41,996 nucleotides of DNA from an uncultured Saprospiraceae bacterium (GTDB taxonomy: Bacteria > Bacteroidota > Bacteroidia > Chitinophagales > Saprospiraceae): positions 1-41,996 of the forward strand of contig CALEAC010000038.1 in the NCBI GenBank assembly GCA_937944095.1. The letters run 5' to 3'. Below are positions 5,224 to 34,779 of this stretch, piece after piece (positions within the stretch are counted from its first letter, which is position 1; every line of letters starts with the position of its first letter). A program made the translations under genes and the position numbers. The notes under the pieces are model-generated. The model saw only the letters and a program-made list of their open reading frames with translations, did no database searches and was not told where the DNA came from.

Positions 5224-8200
5224 ATGGCATCTAAGAGAAAACTAGCATTTCATATATTCATATCTATAACCCTGATATTCAGCATATTAGCTGATGTCTC
5301 TGGTTATGACATCCATGGCCCAGAGGACGATCTCATAGAACGCGTCGCTGCTATAGTACAGGATACCTTCCCGATTTTAGATAGGAGCGGTGATTTTATT
5401 AACGATAATCAGTACAATCCATTCGATGTATATCCCTCTGAAATAGAGCAATCGGTAGAATATGATGCCGAAACTGATACGTATATCATCACCGAAATGA
5501 TAGGTGACGAGTATTTCAGGTCGCCATCCTACCTCACCTTTGATGAATACCTTGATTGGCGATCCAAAGAACAAGAACGCAAATACTTCGAAAAATTAGC
5601 CGGCTATGGCTCACAATACAAGAGCGCAAGTGGTCGTCTAGATCCCATGTCCAAAATTGATATCGAAAAGAACTTGATAGATCGGCTTTTCGGTGGCAAC
5701 GAAATTACAATAGAACCACAGGGAAGCATCGATCTCAACTTCGGTGCGAGCTACAATCGCTCCGATAATCCACAAATCGATCAGAGCCAACAACGACAAT
5801 TCAACATCCCAGATTTCGGTATGGATATCAAGATGAATGTCGACGGCAAGATAGGTGACAAGATGGACTTAGGGTTCAACTATGATACCAATGCCAGCTT
5901 CGATTTTGATCGTAAGATTAAGCTTGCTTATGATTCAGAAAAATGGACAGAAGATGACATCGTCAAGAAAATAGAAGCTGGTAATGTCAGTTTCCCGCTT
6001 AGAAGTAATTTGATTAAGGGTGCTCAGGAGCTATTCGGTCTCAAAACAGAATTGCAATTCGGTCACCTGCGCCTAACTGGTGTTGTCTCACAACAGCGGT
6101 CTAAGCAGCAATCCATACAAGTTCAGAATGGTGCGACTGTCCAGGAATTCCAAATCAGACCAGAAGAATATGATGAGAATAGACACTTCTTTTTGTCTCA
6201 TTATCATAGAGCAACCTATGAGACTTCTCTAGAGAACCTGCCTTATATCAATAATAGCTTTAGAATCACAAACATAGAGGTTTGGATATCAGAAGATAGG
6301 CCTAATTTCCAACCAGATCAGACCATGATTGCTGCTATCGCAGACATAGGCGAGACTGATCCGACTAAGTTCTCTAACCAGGACTCTGCTAATGGTATAA
6401 GCAATGACCCCATGGTCATCAACATAACTACTGATGCTAACGGTATTAGACTACCTGACAATAGGGTCAATGACTTGTATGAGGAAATTGTCTCTAATGA
6501 GATGGCTAACAGGATAGAATTTACTAACTCTGAACTGACAAATAATTATGGTCTAAAAGAATCTGTAGATTTTGAGACCTTCAGAGGAAGAAAGCTAAGA
6601 CAGAATGAATATTTCTATAACCCTGAACTGGGGTTTATCTCACTCAATGTAAGAATGCGTCCTAACCAGGTACTAGCCGTATCTTACGAATATTTCTATA
6701 CAAATAATTGCGAAGATGTCTACAAAGTAGGTAGTACTTCTGATGAAGGCTCCGTATCGAATACCGACAGGGAAGGTGAAGTCGTTTCCGAAGGCGTCCT
6801 CTTTACGAAATTGCTCAAAGGATCCAGCCCTCGAGTCGATCACCCTACTTGGGATTTGATGATGAAAAACGTCTATCCACTAAGAGCAAATCAGTTGGAT
6901 GCAACAGATTTCGAATTTGATGTTTTCTATGAAGATGACAAGAATGGATCTCTGAAGAAGTTCTTGCCAGAGCGGGGTTTCGAATTGATTCCGCTACTTA
7001 ATCTATTCGGATTAGATAATCTGAATTCTAGGAATGACCCGCAGCCTGATGGTGTATTTGATTTTGTGCCAGGCATCACAGTGGTTCCTCAGAACAGTAG
7101 TATCTTCTTTCCTGTGCTAGAACCTTTCGGGGATGCCCTGAATAATATACTCCAAGAAGTCCTAGAAGATACGGAACCGCAATCCACAATAGATTCACTA
7201 ATAGATTTTTATGCTTTCCATGAGTTGTATGATACCTCAGTAGTGGCGGCACAATTAAACCTAGAAAAGAATAAGTTCGTCATGGCAGGAAAGGTCAAAT
7301 CTTCCTCCTCCTCAGAGTACTCTCTAGGTGCCTGGAATATTCCTCAGGGGTCAGTAAGGGTGACTGCTGGTAGTTTTGAGATGGTAGAAGGTATTCATTA
7401 CGAAGTAGATTACGGTATCGGCCGCGTCAGAATACTAGACCAATCAATTATCCAACAAGGTGTACCTGTGAATATTTCATTTGAGGATAATTCTGTTTTT
7501 AGTCTCCAGCAGCGTAACATGATGGGACTCAGAGCGGACTATGAGATTAATGATAATTTCGTCGTAGGTGGCACCTTCTTGAGACTGGCAGAACGGCCCT
7601 TTACTCAAAAAGTAAATATCGGTGATGACCCTATCAAAAATCGGGTCTTCGGTCTAGATTTAGATTATAGCAAAGAAGCCCCCTGGGTAACTTCTGTTGT
7701 AGACAAACTACCATTCTACAGTACTAATGCTAAGTCCAATATCAGTCTAACAGCAGAAGGTGCAGCACTCAAGCCGGGTCACTCACGAGCAATCAACGTG
7801 CCTAATGAAGAAGACAACGGCGGTGTTGTCAGTATAGATGATTTCGAAGGCGCAGTCAGTGGATTCCCTCTCAGTTCTCAGCCAAATAGATGGCAGCTTG
7901 CTAGTATCCCTAGATATGATGACATGAGGCCAGAATTCCAAGAAGCGCACTTACTTAATGATGTAACTTCTGGGGCTAATAGAGCACGTCTGAGTTGGTA
8001 TGTTATCGATCGATTCGTCAATGTCAGTGAAACAACCAAGAACCTTAATTCCTATACAAGGCGTATCAATCAAACAGAACTATTCAATAGACAGATTCCG
8101 CAAGGGCAACTACCAGACCTCCTCACCTTTGACTTAAGTTACTTCCCGACGGAGAGAGGCCCTTATAATTTCGATGTGCCAAATGGCCTTGGAGAATTCA

Positions 8201-11200
8201 CCAAAGGTGTCGAATTTAATCAAGCTGAAAACAGGGTCGAACTGAAAGAACCAGAAACTAGGTGGGCTGGTATCATGAGGTATCTCAATAATAATGATTT
8301 CGAAGCAGCTAACTATGAATTTATAGAATTCTGGATGCTCAATCCATTTAAGACAAAACCCGATGGTTCCGGACATGTTGTAGATGAAGAAGGTTTCTTG
8401 ACTTTCCAACTAGGAAATGTATCTGAAGATATCCTCTACGATAATTTACAGTTTTATGAAAATGCACTACCTAGGGATAGTAGTGTGGTCCCAGAAAGAA
8501 CTACCAACTGGGGTAAGGTGCCTCTGAACACACCGATTAACGATGCCTTTCCAGGCGTCGATTATACAGACCAAGATCTCGGGCTCGATGGGCTCGATAA
8601 CGAAGAAGAAAAATCAGCTCATGCTGATTATATAGACCAAATCCAAGTTGTCACTGGACCAGCACCTCAAAGCCTATTAGATGATGTAGCTGCTGATGAT
8701 TTTGTCTTCTTCAACGACCCTGTTTTCGAAGGGAGTAATGATCTCATAGAGAGATATAAGAATAATAATAATCCACAAGGTAACTCACCAGATGTCTCTA
8801 ATGCAACTTCCTTCCAGAGGGGTAACCCTATCCCTGACAAGGAGGATATGAATAATAACCGAGATCTAGATTCAGGTGAAAGTTTCTATGAGTACAAAAT
8901 CAAAATCGCTAATGCCAATGGTGAAATAGACGAAAATGCAACTGAATTTATTAGAGAAACCAAAATCATCAATTCTCAAAACGCAGGCCCTGAAAAATGG
9001 TATAGATTCAGGATTCCGCTTAACGAAGGAGAATCAGTAAATGGCATACAAGGTTTCAGATCGATTCAATTCATCAGAATCCTCGTCAATGGTTATAAAA
9101 CTGCAAAGACGTTTAGACTAGCCGATTTCGAGCTGATTCGAAACCAATGGAGGAAACTACCTTCGCTATGTGCAAAGGATGGTGGAGAGATTACAGTCAA
9201 CTTCAATACTGATGTGGTTGGTGTAGAAGAAAACGGTGCCAAAGTCCCATTTGGATATGAAATCCCACAAGGGATCAAACAAGAACAACTTTTCAGTTCC
9301 TTCTCAGCAGTCAATCAAGATGAGAACTCTCTGGTTATGAAATTCGAAGATCTACCAGCAAACTGTGAAGTAGCCATCGCTAAACTAAATGAGCTCGACC
9401 TAAGAGTCTTTGAGCGAATGCAGATGTTTGTCCATGCAGAACGTACCCTAACAGATATAGGAGCAGAAGATGATATATTACAGGATGGTGACCTATCTAT
9501 ATTCCTTAGAGTCGGAAAAGATTTCCAGCGGCATTATTACGAATATGAGATACCACTGACCTTATCTAATGATTCGATTGCTTTTACATCGCAGTCAGAT
9601 CGTATTTGGCCTAAAGCAAACATGTTCGATTTTCCACTCGACATGCTAATCCAGGCTAAAAAATTAAGGAACGTAACTGGTGCAGCACTAACAGAAGAAT
9701 TTATAATCACTTCAGAAAATCTATCTCAATATAGAGGTCTAGAAACTGAATACGAAAGCATATCACTGGACACCCTGCCCGAAGGGCATAAAATCAGAAT
9801 CAAAGGAAATCCGAATATTGGCTTGATAAAAGGTGTAAGTGTCGGAATCAGAAATATTGATGATAGGATCCCAATCAGAGATCATAGTGGCGAAATATGG
9901 ATTAACGAATTACGTCTTACTGGCCTCCAAGAAAGAGGTGGTGTCGCAGGCCTCGCACGTATGGAAGTGCAGATGGCCGACCTCGGTAATCTCACGGCTT
10001 CTGCAAGTTACTCAAGTATCGGTTGGGGACAGATAGAGCAGAAAGTCCAAGAAAGAGCTTTAGAAGAAGTTATAGAATATGATGTTGCAACCAATTTAGA
10101 ACTAGGTAAACTATTACCCAAAAATTGGGGTATAAGACTGCCATTCTATGGCCAATATGCAAAGTCAATTATCAATCCTGAATTCGATGCCTACGACTTT
10201 GATATCACAGTAGAGGATGAATACGACCTATTCAAGAATGAACCACCAGAAGTAATCGATGAAATAAGTCAGCGTAATCAAAGAGTCAACACGATTAAGA
10301 CCTTTAACCTGACTAATGTCCGTAAGGAAAGAAGTGCCGGAAAAAATTCAGATAAAACCAAAGCACAAAAAGCTAGAAATTCAACCAATGCCTCTGTCCA
10401 AAAACCAGACAAAAAGGCTAAGAAGAAGAAACCGATGCCTTGGAATATAGAGAATTTCAGTGCGAGTTATTCTTATACAGAATCAACCTATAGAGATCCT
10501 ATCCTCAAAGCAGATAACTCGATAGAACAAAGATTGGGTCTAGATTATAGCTACTCTAGAAAAGGTGGATATATACAACCTTTCAAAAAACTAAAGATTA
10601 ATAATCTGGATTTCATCAAGGAACTAAATCTAAATCCCTTACCTAATAGCTTCTCATTCAATACTAATCTGAATAGATTCTTTGGTACCCGTATATATAG
10701 AATTCCAGAGACACCAGAATTTCATTTCGATGATAGACGATTTGATTGGGAGAGAAGATATGATCTCAATTGGAATCTGACAAAAGCGCTGAAGATAAAC
10801 TTCACCGCCTTCAATGAGTCTTATATAGATGAAGCCCGCCAAACAGGCATAGCAGAAACTGCAGAAGACAGAGAATGGTTTGCATTTACTGATAATGGTA
10901 GCGGAAATCTTATAAAAAGCAATGTCACTGCTGAAGTCGCTGCAGATCCGTTATACCCTAGTCGCTATTGGAAGGATAACCTGAAGAGTGGTGGACGTAA
11001 TACAAATTATGATCACTCACTCAATGTCAATTATACACTTCCAATGAAGTATATACCGTATATGGATTGGGTAGATGTAAAAGCGCAATACAAATCCAGT
11101 TATAATTGGTCTGCAGGAGCCCTGATCGAAGATGCATCTGGCTTTCCACTTGCTGGTGTTATACAAAATGGTCAGACCAGAACGGTCACCGCCAATTTGA

Positions 11201-12879
11201 ATTTTGACAAACTATACAATAAGTCTAAATATCTAAAGAACCTCGATAGAGTCGGCAAACCTAGAACACGAAGTCGAGTAGATGATAGTAAGGGTGATAA
11301 AGTAACCATCGCAAAAGACAAAGACGGTAAGCGCGTCACTAAAAAAGCTGCTCGGCTACCTGGCACTGCTGAGAAGCTACTACTGAGACCCATATTTATG
11401 CTTAGGTCAGTAAGGGTTAACTATAAAGAGGACTTCTCAACAGTGATTCCTGGCTATACCGGGACACCAGAATATTTCGGTCTAGATAATGCATTCACTA
11501 ATCCTGGTGTCGATTTTGTAATTGGTCTACAGCCTAATATCGATCCTGATAATCCATCTAATTTCTTATCGAGGGCAGCCAATAATGGATGGATAACAGA
11601 AAGTCCTGGTCTCAACCAAGAAGTCATCCAGACATCTAACCAGAATTTCGATGCTAAAGTCAAAATCGAACCATGGAAGGATTTCAAGATAGATGTCGAC
11701 TTCAAAAAGAATTATAGAACCACTCATTCTGAGGTATACAAAAATGTAGACAAAGGTGGCGCAACCCAATTCTTAGGTCTAGCCGCTAGAGACCTTGGTA
11801 GCTTCGACGTCACTTACTTTAATATGCAAACGCTGTTCGGAAGAAGCATCGATGAGCTATTCGATCAGTTCGAAAGCTATCGACCTATTATATCTGCTAG
11901 ACTACCTAACGTGGACAACGCGGGTGAGCATACAGAAGATGGTTCTAACTATACTATAGGTTACGGTAAGCAAAGTTCGTCAGTATTAGTACCAGCCTTC
12001 TTAGCTGCCTACACAGATACAGATCCGACAACTATAGATTTAGATCTAGAAAACAGGGTGAGCTCCAGAAAATTCATTCCTAGACCAAACTGGACACTGA
12101 GATATGACGGACTAAGCAAGTTACCATGGTTCAAGGATAAATTCTCAAGCTTCACCCTAGAACATGGTTATTCCTCCTTACTGAAGGTCAGCAACTTTAA
12201 TACAGATATAGAATACGATAGAGTGAGGCCATTTCTAGATGATGATGGTAATCCTAATATCCGACTGAATGGTAATTATTACACGAGAATAGAAATACCA
12301 GCACTTCAGATTTCTGAAAACTTCAATCCAATCATCGGGCTGAAGATGAAGACAAAAAATGACTTCACCATGGAATTCGAATATGCCAAAAGTCGAGACC
12401 TAAATCTTAAGATTAATACGTCTAGTCAGTTGGAAGAGGATAGAAAAACCAGTTTCGTATTCGGCTTAGGATATACGATTAAGGATTCTAATTTCTTGAA
12501 GAAAAAGAAAAAAAGAACTCGGTCGAGCAGAACAAAATCGGATGATGAGGATGAAGACGAGACAAAAGATTCTAGAAATGTACTCAGAAGAAATAGTGTC
12601 GAATCATCGAGAGGCAGTGATATGACTTTTATGCTTAACCTAGCATTTAATGATAATGCCTTCTACGTACACGAACTGGATAAGGATATCTCACAAGAGG
12701 ACAACCAAACCAGAGGATCTAAAGGGTTCCAGATAAATCCATCAGTGGATTATATTCTCAATGACAATGTGACCCTGAGGACTTTCTTTGACTACAATAC
12801 TAATACGCCATACGGAAGTAATAACTTCAAGAGAACCAATATGGCCTTTGGACTCACTATGCGATTGAGTCTGAACTAG
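5224..12879 (+). CDS. sprA: Gliding motility/T9SS outer-membrane translocon protein SprA (Sov)
   Basis: 2551 aa with signal peptide; giant beta-barrel-like protein, IDLNFGASYNRSDNPQIDQSQQRQFNIPDFGMDIKMNVDGKIGDKM, FDRKIKLAYDSEKWTEDDIVKKIEAGNVSFPL, SVDYILNDNVTLRTFFDYNTNTPYGSNNFKRTNMAFGLTMRLSLN C-terminus; next to ruvA, as often seen in Bacteroidota. Confidence 0.95.
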   Translation: MASKRKLAFHIFISITLIFSILADVSGYDIHGPEDDLIERVAAIVQDTFPILDRSGDFINDNQYNPFDVYPSEIEQSVEYDAETDTYIITEMIGDEYFRSPSYLTFDEYLDWRSKEQERKYFEKLAGYGSQYKSASGRLDPMSKIDIEKNLIDRLFGGNEITIEPQGSIDLNFGASYNRSDNPQIDQSQQRQFNIPDFGMDIKMNVDGKIGDKMDLGFNYDTNASFDFDRKIKLAYDSEKWTEDDIVKKIEAGNVSFPLRSNLIKGAQELFGLKTELQFGHLRLTGVVSQQRSKQQSIQVQNGATVQEFQIRPEEYDENRHFFLSHYHRATYETSLENLPYINNSFRITNIEVWISEDRPNFQPDQTMIAAIADIGETDPTKFSNQDSANGISNDPMVINITTDANGIRLPDNRVNDLYEEIVSNEMANRIEFTNSELTNNYGLKESVDFETFRGRKLRQNEYFYNPELGFISLNVRMRPNQVLAVSYEYFYTNNCEDVYKVGSTSDEGSVSNTDREGEVVSEGVLFTKLLKGSSPRVDHPTWDLMMKNVYPLRANQLDATDFEFDVFYEDDKNGSLKKFLPERGFELIPLLNLFGLDNLNSRNDPQPDGVFDFVPGITVVPQNSSIFFPVLEPFGDALNNILQEVLEDTEPQSTIDSLIDFYAFHELYDTSVVAAQLNLEKNKFVMAGKVKSSSSSEYSLGAWNIPQGSVRVTAGSFEMVEGIHYEVDYGIGRVRILDQSIIQQGVPVNISFEDNSVFSLQQRNMMGLRADYEINDNFVVGGTFLRLAERPFTQKVNIGDDPIKNRVFGLDLDYSKEAPWVTSVVDKLPFYSTNAKSNISLTAEGAALKPGHSRAINVPNEEDNGGVVSIDDFEGAVSGFPLSSQPNRWQLASIPRYDDMRPEFQEAHLLNDVTSGANRARLSWYVIDRFVNVSETTKNLNSYTRRINQTELFNRQIPQGQLPDLLTFDLSYFPTERGPYNFDVPNGLGEFTKGVEFNQAENRVELKEPETRWAGIMRYLNNNDFEAANYEFIEFWMLNPFKTKPDGSGHVVDEEGFLTFQLGNVSEDILYDNLQFYENALPRDSSVVPERTTNWGKVPLNTPINDAFPGVDYTDQDLGLDGLDNEEEKSAHADYIDQIQVVTGPAPQSLLDDVAADDFVFFNDPVFEGSNDLIERYKNNNNPQGNSPDVSNATSFQRGNPIPDKEDMNNNRDLDSGESFYEYKIKIANANGEIDENATEFIRETKIINSQNAGPEKWYRFRIPLNEGESVNGIQGFRSIQFIRILVNGYKTAKTFRLADFELIRNQWRKLPSLCAKDGGEITVNFNTDVVGVEENGAKVPFGYEIPQGIKQEQLFSSFSAVNQDENSLVMKFEDLPANCEVAIAKLNELDLRVFERMQMFVHAERTLTDIGAEDDILQDGDLSIFLRVGKDFQRHYYEYEIPLTLSNDSIAFTSQSDRIWPKANMFDFPLDMLIQAKKLRNVTGAALTEEFIITSENLSQYRGLETEYESISLDTLPEGHKIRIKGNPNIGLIKGVSVGIRNIDDRIPIRDHSGEIWINELRLTGLQERGGVAGLARMEVQMADLGNLTASASYSSIGWGQIEQKVQERALEEVIEYDVATNLELGKLLPKNWGIRLPFYGQYAKSIINPEFDAYDFDITVEDEYDLFKNEPPEVIDEISQRNQRVNTIKTFNLTNVRKERSAGKNSDKTKAQKARNSTNASVQKPDKKAKKKKPMPWNIENFSASYSYTESTYRDPILKADNSIEQRLGLDYSYSRKGGYIQPFKKLKINNLDFIKELNLNPLPNSFSFNTNLNRFFGTRIYRIPETPEFHFDDRRFDWERRYDLNWNLTKALKINFTAFNESYIDEARQTGIAETAEDREWFAFTDNGSGNLIKSNVTAEVAADPLYPSRYWKDNLKSGGRNTNYDHSLNVNYTLPMKYIPYMDWVDVKAQYKSSYNWSAGALIEDASGFPLAGVIQNGQTRTVTANLNFDKLYNKSKYLKNLDRVGKPRTRSRVDDSKGDKVTIAKDKDGKRVTKKAARLPGTAEKLLLRPIFMLRSVRVNYKEDFSTVIPGYTGTPEYFGLDNAFTNPGVDFVIGLQPNIDPDNPSNFLSRAANNGWITESPGLNQEVIQTSNQNFDAKVKIEPWKDFKIDVDFKKNYRTTHSEVYKNVDKGGATQFLGLAARDLGSFDVTYFNMQTLFGRSIDELFDQFESYRPIISARLPNVDNAGEHTEDGSNYTIGYGKQSSSVLVPAFLAAYTDTDPTTIDLDLENRVSSRKFIPRPNWTLRYDGLSKLPWFKDKFSSFTLEHGYSSLLKVSNFNTDIEYDRVRPFLDDDGNPNIRLNGNYYTRIEIPALQISENFNPIIGLKMKTKNDFTMEFEYAKSRDLNLKINTSSQLEEDRKTSFVFGLGYTIKDSNFLKKKKKRTRSSRTKSDDEDEDETKDSRNVLRRNSVESSRGSDMTFMLNLAFNDNAFYVHELDKDISQEDNQTRGSKGFQINPSVDYILNDNVTLRTFFDYNTNTPYGSNNFKRTNMAFGLTMRLSLN

Positions 12880-30447: not shown

Positions 30448-31194
30448 ATGTATAAGGATCAAAAAGTCGTCGTTGTCATGCCAGCATACAATGCTGCCGC
30501 CACTCTGGAACAAACCTATGTCGAGATACCAAAGGATCTCGTAGACGCTTTGATTCTATGTGATGATGCGTCTAAGGATGATACTGTTGTCATAGCAGAG
30601 CAATTGGGCATAGATCATATCATAAGCCATAGAACAAATAAAGGCTATGGTGGCAACCAGAAATCGCTCTATAACAAAGCACTGGAAATAGATGCTGATA
30701 TAATTATCATGCTTCATCCTGATTACCAATATACACCTAAGCTTATTCCATCTATGGTCAATATCTTAGGAGAAGGCTTATATCCCGTCGTCCTAGGTTC
30801 CAGAATATTAGGCAAAGGTGCCTTAAAGGGTGGCATGCCCGTCTATAAGTACTTAGCTAATCGCTTTCTGACCTTTGCCCAGAATCTCCTTATCAGCTAT
30901 AAGCTATCAGAGTATCATACTGGTTATAGAGCATTTAGGAAAGAGGTCCTAGAGGAAATTGACTTTAATCAGAATTCTGATGATTTCGTCTTCGATAATG
31001 AGCTGTTGTCACAGATTGTATACGCTGGATATGATATAGCTGAAGTGACCTGTCCTACAAAATACTTTGAAGAAGCCTCTTCTATTAATCTAACAAGGAG
31101 TATCCGCTACGGGTTAGGTGTGCTTCGTGTATCTATAGTGCACAGGCTTAACTTACTTGGCCTTATGAAATCTAAGATGTACAAGAAGTCATAG
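30448..31194 (+). CDS. Glycosyltransferase family 2 (dolichol-phosphate mannosyltransferase-like)
   Basis: 248 aa; VVVMPAYNAAATLEQTYVEIP, LILCDDASKDDTV, RTNKGYGGNQKSLYNKAL, IIIMLHPDYQYTP, YHTGYRAF. Confidence 0.93.
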   Translation: MYKDQKVVVVMPAYNAAATLEQTYVEIPKDLVDALILCDDASKDDTVVIAEQLGIDHIISHRTNKGYGGNQKSLYNKALEIDADIIIMLHPDYQYTPKLIPSMVNILGEGLYPVVLGSRILGKGALKGGMPVYKYLANRFLTFAQNLLISYKLSEYHTGYRAFRKEVLEEIDFNQNSDDFVFDNELLSQIVYAGYDIAEVTCPTKYFEEASSINLTRSIRYGLGVLRVSIVHRLNLLGLMKSKMYKKS

Positions 31195-31195
31195 A

Positions 31196-31267
31196 ATAAG
31201 AACAGGGCACAACGATAAATCGATGCACCCTGTATAACCCCAAAAAACAATTGAAAACAATCATCTT
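31196..31267 (-). ncRNA. Candidate sRNA unit D (weaker terminator)
   Basis: Minus strand: core 31267-31234 (lacks one C and one T relative to the other units), outer stem ACAGGG/CCCTGT (31233-31202), then TTCTTATTCT. Confidence 0.35.
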
Positions 31268-31287
31268 AATGTCAGCCAATTGGACAT

Positions 31288-31352
31288 AAAAAAAGGTGCT
31301 ATAAAGAACAGCACCTATAACCCCAAAAAACCAATTGAAAACAATCTATCTT
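31288..31352 (-). ncRNA. Candidate sRNA unit C with intrinsic terminator
   Basis: Minus strand: core 31352-31317, stem AGGTGCT/AGCACCT (31316-31294), followed by T6 (31293-31288). Confidence 0.45.
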
Positions 31353-31371
31353 TTATTTTCATCGGAAAAGG

Positions 31372-31439
31372 AAAAAAACAGAGTGTGACATAAACCACAC
31401 TCTATAACCCCAAAAAACCAATTGAAAACAATCTATCTT
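31372..31439 (-). ncRNA. Candidate sRNA unit B with intrinsic terminator
   Basis: Minus strand: core 31439-31404, stem AGAGTGTG/CACACTCT (31403-31380), G, then T7 (31378-31372). Confidence 0.45.
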
Positions 31440-31457
31440 CTATTTTCATCGGAAAGG

Positions 31458-31527
31458 AAAAAAACAGAGTGTGATTTGAAAAGCACACTCTGTAACCCCA
31501 AAAAACCAATTGAAAACAATCTATCTT
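31458..31527 (-). ncRNA. Candidate sRNA unit A with intrinsic terminator
   Basis: Minus strand: core 31527-31493, stem CAGAGTGTG/CACACTCTG (31492-31465), then T7 (31464-31458). Confidence 0.45.
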
Positions 31528-31683
31528 GAAATTCTCACCTTTGAGAATTGATACTTCATTTGCGTTGAACGAGAGTCAAAACAACCCTAGTTCCATATTA
31601 AGACACGACAGGGACATGAAAGTCACAAAAAAATTCCAATAAAATTTAAAATAAAACATAAAACCCTGTTAATCAGTGCTTTA

Positions 31684-33045
31684 ATGAAAGATAAAAAAAT
31701 ATTTTTATGCTCTAATTGTGGCAACGAAGCCTATAAATGGGAAGGAAAGTGCCCTTCTTGCCAAGAATGGAACACCTATATAGAGCAAATAGTCAGCAAA
31801 CAGACTAATACGAAAGCTACAGCATGGCAAGATTCCAAGTCAGAAATGAATCTGCCCATCCCTATTTTAGACATCAAAGCGGGTCAGACACCCCGTATTC
31901 CTATCAAGGATAATGAGTTAGCTCGTGTCTTAGGGGGTGGAATAGTACCTGGTTCATTGACACTTATCGGTGGTGACCCTGGCATAGGAAAGTCCACACT
32001 CATGTTGCAACTAGCCCTTACTTGTCCGCTAGACATACTATATGTATCTGGAGAAGAAAGTCCACACCAGATCAAGATGAGAGCGGATCGCATCGGTATT
32101 AAGAATCAAAAGTGCCAAATACTATCTGAGACAGACCTTAAGAAAATTTTCGGAACCATCAAGAAGACTGAGCCTCAGTTACTTATCATCGATTCTATCC
32201 AAACGATTTCCTCTCCACAGGTCGATTCCATCTCGGGGTCCGTAACTCAAGTCAGACAGTGTACTGCTGATCTGCAGACCTTTGCTAAAGAGAGTAATAT
32301 TCCTGTCATCATTATAGGCCACATCAATAAGGAGGGCTCTATTGCAGGACCTAAACTACTAGAACACATCGTCGATACTGTGTTACAGTTCGAAGGAGAC
32401 CGAAATCATATCTATAGGATACTCAGATCCAAAAAGAATCGCTTCGGATCCACAGATGAAATAGGCATCTATGCCATGGAAGCGGCAGGACTCAGAGAAG
32501 TCGAGAACCCCTCTGAACTCTTCCTTTCGCAAAGTGATGAAAACCTCAGTGGCAGCGCAGTGGCGACCACAATCGAAGGACTTAGACCCATGCTCATCGA
32601 AACACAAGCGCTGGTCAGCCAAGCTATCTATGGCAACCCACAAAGGTCTGCAACTGGTTTTGACCTCAGAAGAATGAATATGCTGCTGGCAGTGCTCGAG
32701 AAGAGAGCTGGCCTCTACTTCGGCCAGAACGATGCTTTTCTAAATATCGCAGGCGGGATCAAAGTTGCTGACACTGCTATAGACCTAGCCGTTATCTCTG
32801 CACTGGTATCATCGCTTCACGACATTCCAGTCAATAGAAAAATCTGTTTTGCTGGAGAGGTCGGTCTGACTGGCGAAGTCCGAGCTGTGAATCGGATAGA
32901 ACAAAGGATAGAAGAAGCAGCCAGATTAGGTTTCGAAAAAATTGTCATCTCTAAGTATAATAACAAAGCGATTATGACTAAACCCAAAATCGAACTCTCC
33001 TATATTTCTAAGGTAGAAGATTTGATAACGTTGTTATTTGCTTGA
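31684..33045 (+). CDS. radA: DNA repair protein RadA/Sms
   Basis: 453 aa; zinc finger CSNCGNEAYKWEGKCPSCQEWNTY, Walker A LIGGDPGIGKSTLMLQ, KNRFG motif (RSKKNRFGSTDEIGIY), Lon-like C-terminal domain. Confidence 0.98.
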   Translation: MKDKKIFLCSNCGNEAYKWEGKCPSCQEWNTYIEQIVSKQTNTKATAWQDSKSEMNLPIPILDIKAGQTPRIPIKDNELARVLGGGIVPGSLTLIGGDPGIGKSTLMLQLALTCPLDILYVSGEESPHQIKMRADRIGIKNQKCQILSETDLKKIFGTIKKTEPQLLIIDSIQTISSPQVDSISGSVTQVRQCTADLQTFAKESNIPVIIIGHINKEGSIAGPKLLEHIVDTVLQFEGDRNHIYRILRSKKNRFGSTDEIGIYAMEAAGLREVENPSELFLSQSDENLSGSAVATTIEGLRPMLIETQALVSQAIYGNPQRSATGFDLRRMNMLLAVLEKRAGLYFGQNDAFLNIAGGIKVADTAIDLAVISALVSSLHDIPVNRKICFAGEVGLTGEVRAVNRIEQRIEEAARLGFEKIVISKYNNKAIMTKPKIELSYISKVEDLITLLFA

Positions 33046-34779
33046 TTAGAGGAAGACCTTTTGAGCACTGGTCTTGCCGTCTATTGTTATATGGGCGACG
33101 TAGATACCAGATAAATCGGCAATATCCAGGGTATAAGAAGAGGCAGAACCAGTCACTGACCGAAGTCGTCTACCATTAAGGTTGTATAAATCTATCTGTG
33201 TTTCTGAGCTAGCGCCTAGATTAATTCGCAAAATATGACCCGCTCTTATAAGAGCAATCGAAGTGTCATCTAGCTCAGTCGTAGAAACAGCTGCACTAGG
33301 ACAGAGTTCTATGTGCCACGTCAAAACACTTTTATCTTCTATGGTCACTAGACGTCTTATGGTATCATAGCCAGCCGCAACGACCATCACCTCATACTCG
33401 CCTGCTGCTAAGTACCTATAGTAATCACCCTTAGTAGAATCAGAAAAGACACTAGAATTATCAACATCATGATCCGCAATTAGGACTTCTGCCATAAGCG
33501 GAAGTCCAGTCTCACAGTCTATAACCACACCTTGTAGACCATACATCGCCTCTTGCATATAATGTATAAGTGAGCGTCTATTAGCTTCCCATAAGGTAGG
33601 AAGCTTATCTGAACCGACCAGCTTTGTATCACTTAATTCTATAGTACATTCTCTTCCCCTTAGGACATAGGAGGTGTTATCTTGTCTACCTCCTTTGACT
33701 TCATACCAATCATATCCATTGGTGACCCCGTCATCAAATTCATTCATATATCTAACATCAGAATGTGCCTGACAGGTATCAGCATAACTATGACACACCT
33801 TACGCCACCAATTCACATCAGCTGGTAATTGCTGGAAAGTATCCCATGGATAATTTACAACTTCGGCACCACCATGAAAATTTGCTGCCATATCTATTCC
33901 ATAGTCTTCTCCAAATTTTAAAAAAGCGACCGTCTCGTCTTGATATGGCTTATTATCCGGATGTGGCCCTGCTTCTGGGTCAGGAAAATTTCGATTGAGA
34001 TCTACAAAATTCGCGTTACGTCTGCTGGCTCCAGCAACTGTAGAATTATCATTCCTATATGTCCCATCTGGATTTGCTAATGGATTGATATAGATATCTA
34101 TCTCATTAACCAATTGAGTGATCTTATCATCTGTGTTATAATTACATAATAGATGATCTATTAACTGTAGCATCATCGGAAATCCTGCTGTCTCATCTCC
34201 GTGCATGGTAGAGGTATAAAGAAAATCCGGTTCTAAGTCATCTTCCGTGAGGTCGTCTCCTATATGTGCCATAAGCAGCTTTCGTCCACTGTCTAATGTT
34301 TCTAGAACTATAATTTCACATAGGTCTGGATACCTGTCTTGAAAGCTATACATCATTTCTTCATAAGCCTCATAAGTTGGATAGTAGTCTATGACTGGAA
34401 GGCAATCATTGCCATACTTAAGATTAGGTAGATCCTTCTTACCCTTCATTGCGATGGTGACAGTAGGTCTGGGCTGGTACGAAAATTTTATATCATTTAG
34501 TACAAGAAAGTCATAACCACTCTGAGTAACATAGAGCTTCGCAGCATGTGCTGTACAGCCATGATCTAGTGTTATCCCCTCCTCAGTGAGCAACATCGGC
34601 AATAAATCTAATTCTGTTAACTCTACTTCTATACCGCCATGTAATTCGAATATCTCTGGGGATACCGCTTGTGCTCTCAGCGCTGAAGAAAAAGAAAATT
34701 CAAATAAAAGAACGCAGGCTAAGGCAATGGTTTTCCTTATCCCGCATTTTGTTTTTTGCTGCTTCATTCTTATCGTCAT
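33046..34779 (-). CDS. M14 zinc carboxypeptidase with C-terminal T9SS sorting domain
   Basis: 577 aa; STMHGDETAGFPMM (HxxE), YINPLANPDGTYR, NFHGGAEVVNYPWD, RECTIELSD (catalytic Glu); C-terminal IDLYNLNGRRLRSVTG...SGIYVAHITIDGKTSAQKVFL. The start may be the downstream ATG at 34767. Confidence 0.92.
   Translation of the reverse strand: MTIRMKQQKTKCGIRKTIALACVLLFEFSFSSALRAQAVSPEIFELHGGIEVELTELDLLPMLLTEEGITLDHGCTAHAAKLYVTQSGYDFLVLNDIKFSYQPRPTVTIAMKGKKDLPNLKYGNDCLPVIDYYPTYEAYEEMMYSFQDRYPDLCEIIVLETLDSGRKLLMAHIGDDLTEDDLEPDFLYTSTMHGDETAGFPMMLQLIDHLLCNYNTDDKITQLVNEIDIYINPLANPDGTYRNDNSTVAGASRRNANFVDLNRNFPDPEAGPHPDNKPYQDETVAFLKFGEDYGIDMAANFHGGAEVVNYPWDTFQQLPADVNWWRKVCHSYADTCQAHSDVRYMNEFDDGVTNGYDWYEVKGGRQDNTSYVLRGRECTIELSDTKLVGSDKLPTLWEANRRSLIHYMQEAMYGLQGVVIDCETGLPLMAEVLIADHDVDNSSVFSDSTKGDYYRYLAAGEYEVMVVAAGYDTIRRLVTIEDKSVLTWHIELCPSAAVSTTELDDTSIALIRAGHILRINLGASSETQIDLYNLNGRRLRSVTGSASSYTLDIADLSGIYVAHITIDGKTSAQKVFL

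Follow-up and report, generated by a model that had tools for sequence, protein, structure and literature searches.

The sigma-E-dependent small RNAs (sRNAs) RybB and MicA of enterobacteria are short intergenic RNAs that possess an ECF-type promoter, an unpaired conserved segment and an intrinsic terminator. Saprospiraceae, the family from which the DNA studied here originates, occur in large numbers in activated sludge and in marine systems. The FopS/GibS sRNA family of Bacteroides is conserved in Bacteroidaceae, has sigma-A-type promoters and represses susC mRNAs; its members are recognised by the R1' seed and homology (deposited in Rfam), by pairing at susC-type starts and by binding of RbpB (PMC11697453). 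In Flavobacterium psychrophilum, a -10 CGT box has been attributed to ECF sigmas and also drives the sRNA Rfp11, whose ECF-type (SM6) promoter was experimentally mapped (PMC9723704). Flavo-1 (RF01705) is a structured RNA motif of Bacteroidota (PMC2864571).

Here we analysed a stretch of 41,996 nucleotides from an uncultured Saprospiraceae bacterium (assembly GCA_937944095.1, contig CALEAC010000038.1), referred to as the window, which carries a tandem array between a GT2 glycosyltransferase gene and the DNA-repair gene radA. The putative RNA appears to be undescribed. At the gathering threshold, neither the window nor any of 15 homologous loci matched an Rfam 15 family in the scan that a first-pass annotation of the window had proposed, and when the window array and one homologue were scanned permissively, nothing meaningful emerged. 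In a literature search, which covered few subscription journals or preprints, we found no regulatory RNA described in Saprospiraceae. The same annotation had considered a relation to Flavo-1. Both are structured RNAs of Bacteroidota, but there was no cmscan match at any reported threshold and Flavo-1 was not listed in the permissive scans, so that this relation was not borne out.

In its mode of working the RNA may be analogous to the ECF-dependent sRNAs, and either RybB/MicA or FopS can serve as the analogy for an ECF-induced, trans-acting sRNA. It shares with RybB and MicA the ECF-type promoter, the conserved unpaired segment, the intrinsic terminator and likely an envelope or stress logic. 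Unlike them it belongs to another phylum, shows no sequence relation and occurs in tandem modules, and its core is located just before the terminator, whereas the conserved segment of RybB and MicA lies at the 5' end. The RNA resembles FopS (PMC11697453), but we did not file it in the FopS family, as ECF promoters dominate, an Rfam match is lacking and no pairing signal was found at the susC-type starts, where the core ranked 47 of 200 against shuffles in a test of low power on 48 starts of TonB-dependent transporters. The likeness to Rfp11, compared by description, lies in a conserved Bacteroidota sRNA with an SM6 promoter and its -10 CGT box (PMC9723704).

The array between GT2 and radA

Using the sequence and a repeat search, we located the core on the plus strand at positions 31234, 31317, 31404 and 31492 of the window, with spacings of 83, 87 and 88. 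The first three positions agree with the first-pass annotation, while the fourth had been placed at 31493, and the last spacing is 88 instead of 89. The four-copy array itself is real and far above chance; its units score 62-71 bits with a covariance model (genome-wide E-values of 1e-14 to 4e-12) and have homologues elsewhere. Within the window's own genome the core is present at this single locus.

Read on the minus strand, the array spans 31529-31195 and each of its four units consists of a core of ~25 nt and a subsequent hairpin (Table 1). The units read ...GATTGTTTTCAATTGGTTTTTTGGGGTTA, then the hairpin, then seven T's in units 1-3, in line with the T-runs noticed earlier after three of the four hairpins. 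Unit 4 deviates in that its core is one G shorter and its 3' tail, TTCTTATT, is weaker and U-rich. The hairpin sequences differ from unit to unit, and each is self-complementary. The strand on which the hairpins are followed by T's and the direction of the promoter both support the proposed minus-strand polarity. GT2 and radA were confirmed on the expected sides, both on the plus strand, so that there is no adjacent minus-strand gene that the array could terminate.

Table 1. Features of the array and its neighbours, in window coordinates.
Feature	Position	Strand	Basis
-35 element TGTGAC of an ECF-type promoter	31622..31627	-	motif (85/148 lead units, 0/80 opposite strand)
-10 element TGTCTTAA of the same ECF-type promoter, 16-bp spacer	31598..31605	-	motif
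5' leader hairpin 1 (GAACTAGGG...TTC), predicted	31567..31593	-	single-sequence fold, inference only
5' leader hairpin 2, AATTCTC-AAAGGT-GAGAATT, directly before the first core	31530..31549	-	single-sequence fold
Unit 1 core GTTTTCAATTGGTTTTTTGGGGTTA	31493..31517	-	sequence, alignment
Unit 1 terminator hairpin CAGAGTGTG/CACACTCTG + 7 T	31458..31492	-	sequence, covariation
Unit 2 core	31405..31429	-	
Unit 2 terminator hairpin AGAGTGTG/CACACTCT + T run	31372..31403	-	sequence, covariation
Unit 3 core	31318..31342	-	
Unit 3 terminator hairpin AGGTGCT/AGCACCT + 7 T	31288..31316	-	sequence, covariation
Unit 4 core, one G fewer	31235..31258	-	
Unit 4 hairpin ACAGGG.../...CCCTGT + U-rich tail TTCTTATT; end adjoins GT2 stop codon	31196..31233	-	
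radA, divergent neighbour, kept in most homologous loci	31684..33045	+	
GT2 glycosyltransferase, the convergent gene at some of the loci (family F7)	30448..31194	+	

Conservation and structure of the unit

The core, UUUUCA[A/U]UUGGUUUUUUGGGGUUA, is near invariant and mostly unpaired in 118 units from many genera, where its variation consists of the A/U in CA[A/U]TTGG and of rare changes in the G run. In the 3' hairpin, 88.9% of the cells pair in alignment A1, compared with 37-53% in slid controls, and both-sided changes occur in nine of the ten pairs. Alignment A3, which leans towards these pairs because it was fitted to a model sharing six of them, gave 90.2% (37-57% when slid) and again both-sided changes in nine of ten pairs; such changes affected 143 cells, compared with 30 in shuffles. 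The maintenance of pairing between differing stem sequences, first noticed in the window, was thus confirmed as compensatory change in both alignments. In all units examined, hairpin and T-rich tail follow each other on one strand, and a GC-rich hairpin with a U-tract, kept by compensatory change, resembles an intrinsic terminator. The hairpin covariation and the presence throughout the family (see below) make it highly probable that the units represent a real RNA family.

The core had also been suggested to form a mini-hairpin of its own, ATTG-TTTT-CAAT. It can pair in 84.7% of A1 cells, but only two both-sided changes were seen, and one pair is broken in a whole clade with GATTGTTTTCATTTGG, which speaks against this structure. 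RNAalifold pairs the U's of the core with GGGG; all six pairs are virtually invariant and hence neutral as evidence. The leader upstream of the core is variable, and hairpins are frequent in it, with z < -2 at 26 of 83 loci.

Translation across the core, as a short leader or a small protein, would be compatible with the finding that some frames through it are open. In the 118 units, however, the three codon positions do not differ in their invariance and synonymous variation is absent, and the frame enters a terminator stem of changing sequence. As every codon position is equally fixed, the core should not be coding, and we regard translation as the least probable of the explanations considered here.

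Unlinked paralogues in one genome carry the same core variant (CAATTGG or CATTTGG) and differing stems, with one exception (G013). This agreement fits coevolution with a trans partner, but it also fits simple descent.

Distribution and genomic context

The exact 20-mer of the core matched 83 stretches among the GTDB species genomes, nearly all of them in Saprospirales. One cultured outlier, from Mangrovimonas, was listed without a hairpin and was treated as a chance match. Because selection by the exact core had shaped this first sample, we built covariance models from 90 (R1) and 118 units (R2), following the model search that had been proposed for the window. With R2 at E <= 0.001, matches were found throughout the family, namely in 321 of 398 sampled Saprospiraceae genomes (81%) and in 102 of 114 genera. 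Copy numbers ranged from one to eight per genome, and most genomes hold a single module. In a sample of the order, R1 detected the unit in 112 of 399 genomes, all but two of them within the family, and among 395 genomes of a class sample no score outside the family was better than 2.4e-5. The unit is essentially confined to Saprospiraceae, with almost none elsewhere in the order or class.

Several individual loci deserve mention. Portibacter lacus and P. marinus, both cultured hosts, have three units each. On a contig of SS_bin_77, the model found a third unit with a core variant (L038 270-341, 61.7 bits) that the exact pattern had missed. Genus g22 (L172-L176) has a genus-wide, single-copy variant with the hairpin GGGAGGCAAC/GTTGCCTC, and no radA was found within the ~2 kb searched on each side of it.

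At the majority of the loci in the first set, radA lies divergently beside the RNA; the radA cluster counts 59 members over 83 loci, some of which are broken off at contig ends. Neither core nor promoter was present in the radA upstream regions of 29 Bacteroidia genomes from outside the family. The close, conserved linkage in most radA-spanning loci might hint at a cis-acting role, with the unit serving radA or the convergent gene as a terminator or as a 5'/3' UTR element. We consider this very improbable, since radA and the RNA are divergently oriented, with the polarity of the RNA pointing away from the gene, and since the convergent neighbour varies between a DksA/TraR-like zinc-finger protein, GT2, ScpB and others (the DksA/TraR-like and ScpB proteins having been named from sequence by eye). 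Moreover, unlinked copies with promoters of their own exist.

The tandem arrangement and the presence of several loci in a genome could also indicate an element acting at the DNA level, such as a mobile REP-like repeat, an attC-like site or a protein-binding array. Against this, the orthologous position by radA is retained across many genera, and promoter, core, hairpin and U-tract follow each other in fixed polarity. A mobile repeat would be scattered without fixed context, whereas the copy number is low and the window's own genome has a single, radA-linked locus. The probability of such an element appears slightly lower still than that of a cis-acting role.

Promoters, probable transcript shape and possible function

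Most loci contain an ECF-sigma-type promoter, TGTGAC-N15/16-CGTCTTA, 80-140 nt upstream of the first core. With at most two mismatches of 12, the consensus was found in 55 of 80 upstream regions compared with 6 of 1600 dinucleotide shuffles, and in 0/80 on the opposite strand. Among unique lead units it is present in 85 of 148 (shuffle mean 5.5, max 11). A second promoter class is formed by the Bacteroidota housekeeping box TAnnTTTG, which occurs in 30 of the 63 non-ECF copies (shuffle mean 5.9, max 11) and in 6/85 ECF-class copies. Genomes G285, G222, G230, G326 and G361 have one copy of each class, and so do the HKST-UBA24 and Bin_11_1 genomes. The RNA thus seems to have its own promoter at a fixed distance upstream, with -35 and -10 elements of ECF type separated by 15-17 bp. 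The form of the motif suggests that it is read by an ECF sigma, and ECF-type control of the window array is very probable.

A candidate for this sigma was sought among self-regulated ECF genes of Portibacter and rejected, the best one having another, TGTAAC-type promoter. An abundant Saprospiraceae ECF sigma gene (L209 1186-1683; L233-L255) carries its own promoter, TGTAAC-N16/17-CGTC, directly upstream in most genomes. This -35 is one base off the TGTGAC of the RNA, and the gene is apparently autoregulated, with a distinct regulon. Strict TGTGAC-N-CGTCTTA proved unsuitable as a genome-wide regulon marker, being near chance outside the RNA loci. Elsewhere in the genome of the window, TGTGAC-N-CGTCTAA has a single strict match (L087 1480-1530; G000:C221:4903-4931), upstream of a short gene whose start may be DUF937-like.

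Tandem arrays were found in the window and at L009, L010, L012, L022, L027, L034 and L085. The repeated piece comprises core and hairpin, the leader stays single, and within three mismatches the ECF consensus was absent from all 20 inter-unit segments. Since the duplications include core and hairpin alone and no inter-unit promoter, core plus hairpin is likely the functional module. The first-pass annotation had envisaged four separate RNAs of 65-75 nt, but the one promoter found lies 5' of unit 1, which in the window is preceded by a leader with a predicted hairpin. As the units have one promoter in common, the array probably gives rise to one transcript of ~135-395 nt, its members being co-transcribed with read-through or processing.

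A trans-acting sRNA fits these observations best because the RNA has its own promoter, an unpaired conserved segment, a terminator, multiple copies and a consistent core within each genome. We therefore favour, with some reserve, a family of trans-acting small regulatory RNAs of Saprospiraceae, induced by an ECF sigma and intrinsically terminated. In the window, an ECF-type sigma would transcribe the minus strand from a start near 31592, divergently from radA; the transcript would begin with a variable leader, in which one or two hairpins form, and continue with the almost invariant, mostly unpaired 25-nt core and the terminator. The core-plus-hairpin module has here been duplicated in tandem to four copies behind one promoter, and partial read-through or processing would yield RNAs that carry between one and four cores and measure from ~135 to ~395 nt. 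The core would most likely act as a seed and base-pair with mRNAs while the ECF pathway is active; such pairing seems to us a reasonably probable mode of action. Such an sRNA, near-ubiquitous in the family and having an invariant core and an ECF promoter that can be recognised, would offer a direct entry into post-transcriptional control in Saprospiraceae, with the core as a ready probe and the promoter as a ready reporter for a putative stress sigma.

Perfect 12-mer complements of the core outside the RNA loci were near chance and not common between genomes, and at gene starts the duplex energies were no better than those of shuffled cores; these target tests were weak, as they were run without comparative prediction across whole genomes. 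Searching five genomes for rRNA genes as a possible partner of the core, we found none. Furthermore, the near-invariant stretch of 25 nt exceeds usual sRNA seeds, and a protein site would fit it too.

The main rival is a protein-binding or titrating decoy RNA, comparable to CsrB or 6S, in which a dedicated RNA-binding protein would recognise core and hairpin, and the amount titrated would depend on the number of copies, both in tandem and across the genome. The long, invariant and modular unit, the duplication of core and hairpin without the leader, the one to eight copies per genome and the missing mRNA signal (12-mer complements, gene starts and TonB transporter starts) would all agree with it. 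Nevertheless, most genomes have a single module, the putative partner protein has no known candidate, base-pairing sRNAs normally have an intrinsic terminator directly behind an unpaired core, and the missing signal comes from the weak tests described above. Titration thus appears possible but doubtful. Rather unlikely is a family-wide RNA device whose invariant 25-nt core binds one conserved trans partner, either an RNA-binding protein or an essential, conserved RNA; the dose would follow from the copies in tandem and at dispersed sites, and the input would be split between ECF stress and housekeeping sigmas.

Further observations concern a subfamily and the window itself. In the subfamily of L012, L027 and L034, located away from radA, GGGGTTAATTATT stands before the hairpin, and as many as five units are arrayed behind one GTGAC..CGTC promoter. 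The genomes of L012/L015 and L034/L051 have a second, TAnnTTTG-driven copy besides the subfamily array. In the window, a 2551-aa open reading frame extends over 5224-12879, and positions 33046-34779 encode a zinc carboxypeptidase of the M14 type, in which the C-terminal domain is a weak Por_Secre_tail (type IX secretion).
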